From the NCBI RefSeq assembly GCF_000025545.1, contig NC_013889.1, positions 124,001 to 188,000 on the forward strand: 64,000 bases of DNA, in the 5' to 3' direction. This document shows positions 29,415-30,118 of this stretch, piece by piece. The notes under the pieces were generated by a model. It was not told the DNA's origin. It saw nothing but the letters and a program-made list of their open reading frames with translations, and searched no databases. Position numbers and translations under genes: made by a program. Every line of letters begins with the position of its first letter. Within the stretch, counting starts at the first letter, position 1. Source of the DNA: Thioalkalivibrio sp. K90mix. Its GTDB lineage: Bacteria > Pseudomonadota > Gammaproteobacteria > Ectothiorhodospirales > Ectothiorhodospiraceae.

Positions 29415-29537
29415 GCGCCCGAGAGGGTGAGCCGGGGTTTCGCGAAGCACGGCTTCGCGCCGGCGAACGCCCCGAGGCTGTCGCCGAGGGGGTGACTTGC
29501 GATGCCGTGCCGCTGCGCAGGCCTTGATTCGACGGGG
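29415..29537 (-). repeat. tRNA-linked repeat, copy 0 (degenerate)
   Basis: Begins with GCGCCCGAGAGG, the 3'-end sequence of the neighbouring tRNA-Arg, and ends near TTGATTCGACGGGGG, a decayed version of the TTCGAACGGAGG that closes the other copies. The body has diverged; only a CGCGAAG/CTTCGCG hairpin and fragments such as GCGATGCCG recall the others. This is the most distant copy from the tRNA. Confidence 0.6.
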
Positions 29538-29567
29538 GCGCGGCGTTGGGCTCGGGGGTGTTCGGGC

Positions 29568-29681
29568 GGCGCGCCCGAGAGGATGGCTGCGCGACCTGCG
29601 GTCGCTTGGCCCTTCGGGCTGGCACCGCCTGCGGCGGTACCGCGCGTCGGCCCGCTGCGCGGGCCTCGGCTCGAACGGAGG
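29568..29681 (-). repeat. tRNA-linked repeat, copy 1
   Basis: Starts with GGCGCGCCCGAGAGGAT (29568-29584), a 17-nt exact copy of 30043-30059, the 3' end of tRNA-Arg including two bases of CCA. Four hairpins follow: GCGACC/GGTCGC, GCCC/GGGC, ACCGCC/GGCGGT and GGCCCGC/GCGGGCC. It closes with TCGAACGGAGG. From 29571 to 29681 it differs from copy 3 at a single base in 111. Confidence 0.9.
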
Positions 29682-29712
29682 CATGGGGCTGGCTTCCTGG
29701 GTGTTCGTGCTT

Positions 29713-29826
29713 CGCGCCCGAGAGGATGGCTTCGCCGCCTTTGGCGGCTCGGTCCTTCGGACCGGCACCGCCGGTTGGCGGTGCCGCGATGTCGGCCCGC
29801 GATGCGGGCCTCGATTCGAACGGAGG
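29713..29826 (-). repeat. tRNA-linked repeat, copy 2 (covarying)
   Basis: Starts with CGCGCCCGAGAGGAT and closes with GATTCGAACGGAGG. The same four hairpins are present, but with paired substitutions relative to copies 1 and 3: GCCGCC/GGCGGC in place of GCGACC/GGTCGC, GTCC/GGAC in place of GCCC/GGGC, and a longer third stem GCACCGCC/GGCGGTGC. Pairing is kept although sequence has changed. Confidence 0.85.
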
Positions 29827-29859
29827 TTCGCGGGGTTGGCTCCGAGGGCGTTTAAACGT

Positions 29860-29971
29860 CGCGCCCGAGAGGATGGCTGCGCGACCTGCGGTCGCTTGGC
29901 CCTTCGGGCCGGCACCGCCTGCGGCGGTACCGCGCGTCGGCCCGCTGCGCGGGCCTCGGCTCGAACGGAGG
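29860..29971 (-). repeat. tRNA-linked repeat, copy 3
   Basis: Starts with CGCGCCCGAGAGGAT and closes with TCGAACGGAGG, almost identical to copy 1 across 111 bp. It is the copy nearest to the tRNA gene, separated from it by about 30 bp and a terminator-like inverted repeat. The four hairpins are as in copy 1. Confidence 0.9.
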
Positions 29972-30000
29972 TTCTCATCGGGCCCTCGGGGCACACCCCC

Positions 30001-30039
30001 ATAAAGAAGAAGGGCCCGCTAGGGGCCCTTCTTCTTTAT
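30001..30039. terminator. Terminator-like perfect inverted repeat after tRNA-Arg
   Basis: Arms 30001-30017 and 30023-30039 are perfectly complementary over 17 bp, with a GCTAG loop; the core is AAGGGCCC/GGGCCCTT. It begins 3 bp after the CCA end of the tRNA gene. The outer arms are A/T-rich, but there is no long uninterrupted T run in either direction. Confidence 0.8.
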
Positions 30040-30041
30040 GA

Positions 30042-30118
30042 TGGCGCGCCCGAGAGGATTCGAACCTCTGACCTCTGCCTCCGGAGGGCAGCGCTCTATC
30101 CAGCTGAGCTACGGGCGC
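30042..30118 (-). tRNA. tRNA-Arg (anticodon CCG)
   Basis: On the minus strand the acceptor GCGCCCG (from 30118) pairs with CGGGCGC. The D arm contains AGCTCAGCTGGATAGAGC, and the anticodon stem CTGCC/GGCAG encloses the loop CTCCGGA, giving anticodon CCG, which reads the Arg codon CGG. The T arm contains GGTTCGAATCC. The discriminator G is followed by an encoded CCA (30044-30042). The 3' part of this gene is copied at the start of each repeat at 29415-29971. Confidence 0.97.

Follow-up and report, generated by a model that had tools for sequence, protein, structure and literature searches.

A probable divergent TLR-type repeat array downstream of tRNA-Arg(CCG) in Thioalkalivibrio sp. K90mix

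tRNA-linked repeats (TLRs; RtT RNA in Rfam) have been known since 1978, with descriptions in 1978 and 1999, and have no accepted function; a starvation phenotype reported for them was later retracted (PMC8144298). E. coli carries 22 TLRs at ten loci, with 3' ends identical to the upstream gene (PMC8144298). RrA, RrB and RrF of the E. coli rRNA operons belong to the same family; they lie between two terminators, are transcribed by read-through and bind Hfq and CsrA in vitro, and CsrA binding was predicted not to extend to the tRNA-linked ones (PMC8144298). RtT RNAs are expressed in Actinobacillus (PMC4986893), an RtT-like sequence within BIMEs has been reported in enterobacteria (PMC2965389), and a study of Thioalkalivibrio reports expression and cold induction of RtT RNA in the genus (up at 10 °C; PMC8092127). 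The annotated RttR of E. coli is 171 nt long (NC_000913.3, 1287066-1287236), and its last base is the A of the first repeat's CCA, as expected if tRNA maturation makes the RttR 3' end.

The array described here lies in a 64,000-nt stretch (the window) of the genome of Thioalkalivibrio sp. K90mix, a soda-lake sulfur bacterium. We confirmed three full units and one decayed unit downstream of tRNA-Arg(CCG), on the same (minus) strand as the tRNA (Table 1). The 12-mer CCTCTCGGGCGC of the T-stem/acceptor strand occurs five times in the window, always on the minus strand, once in the tRNA (30046-30057) and once in each unit (29861-29872, 29714-29725, 29571-29582 and 29415-29426), against a chance expectation of 0.03 matches in 64 kb. 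An earlier note on this DNA had described units that begin with an exact 12-17 nt copy of the tRNA-Arg 3' end. The copies are present at all four sites and the tie to the tRNA 3' end stands, but the orientation has to be reversed: because tRNA-Arg(CCG) lies on the minus strand, the units end, rather than begin, with the tRNA 3' strand. Exact identity to the tRNA runs from position 59 over 15, 15 and 17 nt in units 1, 2 and 3 and over 12 nt in the terminal unit, and the full units are spaced 143-147 nt from start to start. The further idea that a body had been inserted into a copied T-arm fragment was borne out, as the body lies exactly between A58 and A59, with TTCGA (T-loop, to A58) before it and ATCC (A59 on) after it.

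Pairing of the inverted T-arm copy with the copied 3' strand, which forms the closing helix P1, is predicted in unit 1 and not in units 2 and 3. At the inverted-copy site of unit 1, relatives carry GATTCGAACCTC, which repeats 12 nt of the tRNA T-arm in inverted form. Across eight species, every Arg(CCG) unit has another sequence in place of CCA. The palindromic hairpin between tRNA and array is probably a terminator that is read through in part; a pattern scan found no consensus terminator at this hairpin. Its counterpart in array-bearing species is also a perfect palindrome, yet the sequence is wholly different between clades (ATCATAAAGAAGAAGGGCCC versus ATTACGCAGAAAGGGGCC). Elsewhere in the window, an FNR-type palindrome, TTGATCTGGATCAA (29320-29333), precedes a 44-aa membrane-protein-like ORF (29130-29261, minus strand), which is conserved beside the array in relatives and has no Pfam match, and a TPP riboswitch was found at 20749-20847 (minus strand, 72.9 bits).

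Table 1. Features of the Arg(CCG) array (window coordinates) and interrupted tRNA copies (locus coordinates; G000 is the source genome)
Feature	Position	Strand	Evidence or remark
tRNA-Arg(CCG), host of the copied 3' strand	30042..30118	-	ARAGORN; Rfam tRNA 69.3 bits
Perfect palindromic hairpin CATAAAGAAGAAGGGCCC..GGGCCCTTCTTCTTTATG between tRNA and array	30000..30040	-	
Unit 1 T-arm/acceptor segments in inverted copy (CCCGAGGGCCCGATGAGAACCTCC), forming the 5' strands of P1 (closing helix) and P2	29968..29990	-	
Unit 1, the one nearest the tRNA	29858..29990	-	fold P1, P2, H1-H4; -75.7 kcal/mol; z -3.36
Unit 1 body, four GC-rich hairpins between T-loop A58 and copied 59-73	29875..29960	-	R2 25.9 bits, E 0.0015 in 64 kb; match ends 29875
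Unit 1 copy of tRNA positions 59-73 (ATCCTCTCGGGCGCG), without CCA	29860..29874	-	
Unit 2 body, second body type with paired changes	29728..29815	-	R2 20.0 bits, E 0.024; R1 18.1 bits
Unit 2 copy of tRNA positions 59-73	29713..29727	-	
Unit 3 body, one base different from unit 1 body	29585..29670	-	R2 20.0 bits, E 0.024
Unit 3 copy of tRNA 59-73 plus CC (17 nt)	29568..29584	-	
Decayed terminal unit, interior largely different, CCTCTCGGGCGC retained	29415..29540	-	end element recurs in most relatives
Interrupted Gln-UUG, three copies, G000	L038:854-1357		
Interrupted tRNA copy	L048:1680-1749		
Further interrupted copies	L094, L095, L100, L102, L115, L124, L125, L129, L131, L133, L139, L143, L151		

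The E. coli TLRs, tyrT RttR among them, resemble the array in their place downstream of a tRNA on the same strand, their tandem arrangement, a 3' strand equal to the upstream tRNA from the T-loop on, and a four-hairpin body with CCCGAAGGG; the GATGAGAACC lead recurs in unit 1 of the window. Spacing is of similar size, 143-156 nt in the Arg(CCG) array and 178 nt in E. coli tyrT. In contrast to the E. coli units, those of Arg(CCG) are without CCA, their copied end measures 15-17 nt (18-19 nt in E. coli), units 2 and 3 have a weak P1 or none, the lead reads CGTTCGA instead of GGTTCGA and the body lies below Rfam detection. RrA, RrB and RrF copy the end of 5S rRNA, whereas the Arg(CCG) units copy that of a tRNA.

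A survey of tRNA loci in the same genome revealed copies of the tRNA's own 3' end behind Arg(ACG) and Gln(CTG) and inside or behind Gln(TTG) and Ser(TGA), several of which Rfam identifies as RtT (RF00391). This family has 17 matches in the genome, at six other tRNA loci (Gln-TTG, Gln-CTG, Ser-GGA, Ser-CGA, Ser-GCT and Arg-ACG), and matches in 32 of 58 relatives from the genus and beyond; among 14 control genomes E. coli alone was positive, and under strict filters the family is found in 52 of 276 genomes and 46 of 215 genera of the class. The Arg(CCG) units do not reach the RF00391 gathering score and give no match up to E 10, and a search of the array with all of Rfam returned chance matches only, with palindrome matches to microRNA families at the hairpin. 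Below its cut-off, Rfam sX4 (RF02223, a Xanthomonas sRNA) matches tRNA-Ser genes together with a downstream part (L048, L104 and L084), and sX4 may therefore itself be tRNA- or TLR-related.

Because RF00391 misses the Arg(CCG) array, we built covariance models from the bodies of other loci. A MAFFT alignment of 37 diverse bodies gave too poor a structure, and a small hand-structured model was used and then enlarged: R1 comprises 12 sequences with the tRNA-derived ends removed, and R2 comprises 127 bodies of other tRNA loci, with tRNA-derived ends and Arg(CCG) sequences left out. In the window, R2 ranked the three Arg(CCG) units 1 to 3, on the correct strand and with edges at the copied tRNA segment (25.9, 20.0 and 20.0 bits), and the next-best match, at an unrelated place, scored 18.9 bits. 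The 12 Arg(CCG) bodies of the source genome and its relatives scored E 0.0017-0.09; the modelled evidence for kinship is moderate per unit but consistent. Position, T-loop edges, hairpin order, a third hairpin of the CCCGAAGGG type and the GATGAGAACC lead also agree with RtT, and a homologous four-hairpin body lies between T-loop positions 58 and 59, with an imperfect hairpin-by-hairpin mapping. The array is thus very probably kin to TLR/RtT: it is not a new class but a divergent, so far unannotated variant of a known family, filed as divergent rather than as a plain TLR because its units are without CCA. The earlier note was right to expect a family of tRNA-linked structured RNAs, which turns out to be an existing one. 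Its statement that the sequence differs from the E. coli tyrT repeats did not hold up, as the two are homologous: RF00391 finds its copies at other tRNAs of this very genome, and the E. coli units share both the parts and their order.

A canonical unit consists, in order, of an inverted acceptor/T-arm copy (the 5' strand of P1), GAACC..GGTTC (P2), GGTTCGA, four hairpins, GAGTA and the host tRNA from A59 to CCA, with the body placed exactly between tRNA positions 58 and 59, in the T-loop. We tallied the 117 of 127 body matches that have an intact same-strand tRNA in the stretch, allowing at most two edits over positions 59-73. Of these, 108 units match their own tRNA, 80 of them exactly, compared with none of 2,389 comparisons with tRNAs of other amino acids, and CCA follows the copied segment in 85 of the 108. 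The exceptions lie mostly at contig ends or are visibly decayed. The same anatomy and rule were seen in 19 of 26 loci of other genera and at E. coli tyrT. Covariation was present in 21 of 24 pairs of the body helices, with 96.2% of cells paired; as the alignment had been fitted to the structure, it is biased towards pairing. Units with a full inverted copy have a closing helix identical to the minihelix that the host tRNA forms from its acceptor and T-stem (for example GGGCCGGCAGGAT versus ATCCTGCCGGCCC). The inverted arm in Gln(TTG) holds 9-13 nt of its own tRNA in most units, versus about 5 nt for others; an own-host signal is clear mainly there, and the comparison loses force because all T-arms share GATTCGAACC. 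As modelled, a canonical unit is a CCA-ended minihelix like the top half of its own tRNA, with a hairpin domain replacing the T-loop.

In 18 cases, a complete copy of a tRNA gene is interrupted by a TLR body at 58/59, with the 5' part up to position 58, the body and then the 3' strand. There are 11 such copies of Gln-UUG in eight genomes and 7 of Ser-UGA in seven, each with an intact gene beside it. Recombination at the short T-loop sequence that they share may have produced these copies, or they may be the ancestral form.

On a tree of the bodies, the host tRNA changes 11 times, compared with 52.8 after shuffling, and genome labels cluster weakly beyond host (90 versus 98.4). With bodies grouped by host tRNA, their behaviour in the genus is not that of hopping elements; TLR units are inherited with their locus and multiply by tandem duplication, with some exchange. 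The Arg(CCG) array itself occupies the same orthologous place, with one to three full units, in the source genome (G000) and in G026, G021, G005, G011, G004, G022 and G001; all named records with an Arg(CCG) unit are Thioalkalivibrio. G023 and G027 hold remnants only, and many other species have no array behind tRNA-Arg(CCG). In G025, G009 and G002 (L074, L075 and L076), tRNA-Arg(CCG) has a different T-arm and anticodon stem, and the array is gone save for a remnant of the unit start. Judged by reading, an rfaH-like gene in G022 (L062) and an insert with long inverted repeats in G011 (L059) lie between the array and the usual next gene.

To follow the structure of the Arg(CCG) units we compared 12 bodies from eight species. 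Standard pairs fill 98.8% of pair cells. Two-sided changes occur at 5 of 27 pairs, in 23 cells versus 9.6 in shuffles (none of 500 reached 23) and in none when the partners are slid; as two body types alternate, these changes represent few events, and the first hairpin, being invariant, lends no support for or against pairing. The paired stem changes pointed out before are real (GCGACC/GGTCGC to GCCGCC/GGCGGC, and GCCC/GGGC to GTCC/GGAC). Random placement of copies, lack of covariation and restriction to one strain, which the earlier note had named as grounds for doubt, are not what we found: copies are not randomly placed, covariation is present and the array occurs in more than one strain.

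These data bear on whether the array could consist of selfish or neutral local repeats, that is, TLR-like DNA without function here that grows through unequal crossing over at identical tRNA 3' ends, the paired changes being relics of the canonical family and of conversion among the copies. This reading, which we consider less probable than not, would account for a copy number of one to three among relatives, for the remnants in two species and the missing array in many, for the lost CCA and the decayed terminal unit, and for two-sided changes that are confined to few pairs and mostly separate the two body types. It fits less well with changes that are compensatory rather than breaking, and with a copied 12-nt end that is kept across species even in the decayed unit.

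Two other explanations were rejected. The tandem 3'-end copies could be attachment-site remnants, left behind by genetic elements that integrated repeatedly at the 3' end of the tRNA; tRNA 3' ends are common integration sites, and, again by reading, the array marks an insertion site in G022 and G011. However, homologous structured bodies of similar size lie between all copies, and the homology of bodies across tRNAs largely refutes this origin. The inverted T-arm copy, vertical clustering by host and the lack of an integrase among the four neighbouring ORFs tested also speak against it, leaving it very unlikely. With the array at one orthologous place in relatives, the host clustering and the integrase result likewise tell against the proposal of a mobile element that targets tRNA 3' ends, within the genus. 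Least credible of all is a repetitive protein gene, for which a 234-aa ORF spanning the array on the minus strand might be taken. Long open frames exist and E. coli rttR overlaps a small ORF, tpr, but at a G+C of about 77-80% frames are open on both strands, the 143-nt spacing shifts the frame between units and the stems stay paired across changes.

We therefore regard the array as a likely divergent cluster of TLRs of the RtT type, in which every unit has a partial copy of the neighbouring tRNA that is opened in the T-loop, between positions 58 and 59, by a four-hairpin RNA domain. Anatomy, homology, matching to the host tRNA and descent with the locus are what the analysis shows; as for transcription, processing and any function of the Arg(CCG) array, we infer that it would most likely be co-transcribed with tRNA-Arg(CCG) by read-through of the palindromic hairpin, and that the TLR RNA would most likely be cut out during tRNA maturation; the Arg(CCG) units would be a derived CCA-less subtype spread by local tandem duplication. 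For canonical units, tRNA-like processing has about an even chance of being correct, and for the Arg(CCG) subtype it is doubtful. A bolder and rather improbable reading is that TLR RNAs imitate the top half of the host tRNA, the T-loop being opened to take the hairpin domain, and that the 18 interrupted Gln-UUG and Ser-UGA genes are conserved functional chimeras. If this were true, the TLR family would have a tRNA-specific action on tRNA maturation, or exert one through it, and the Arg(CCG) array would be a CCA-less offshoot that left the tRNA maturation pathway. The TLRs of this genome, which occupy about eight tRNA loci and include a CCA-less subtype, offer, together with the T-loop-interrupted tRNA genes, natural variants that could show which parts matter. 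Processing as a tRNA mimic becomes directly testable through the T-loop and own-tRNA rules, which also extend the family beyond Rfam detection.
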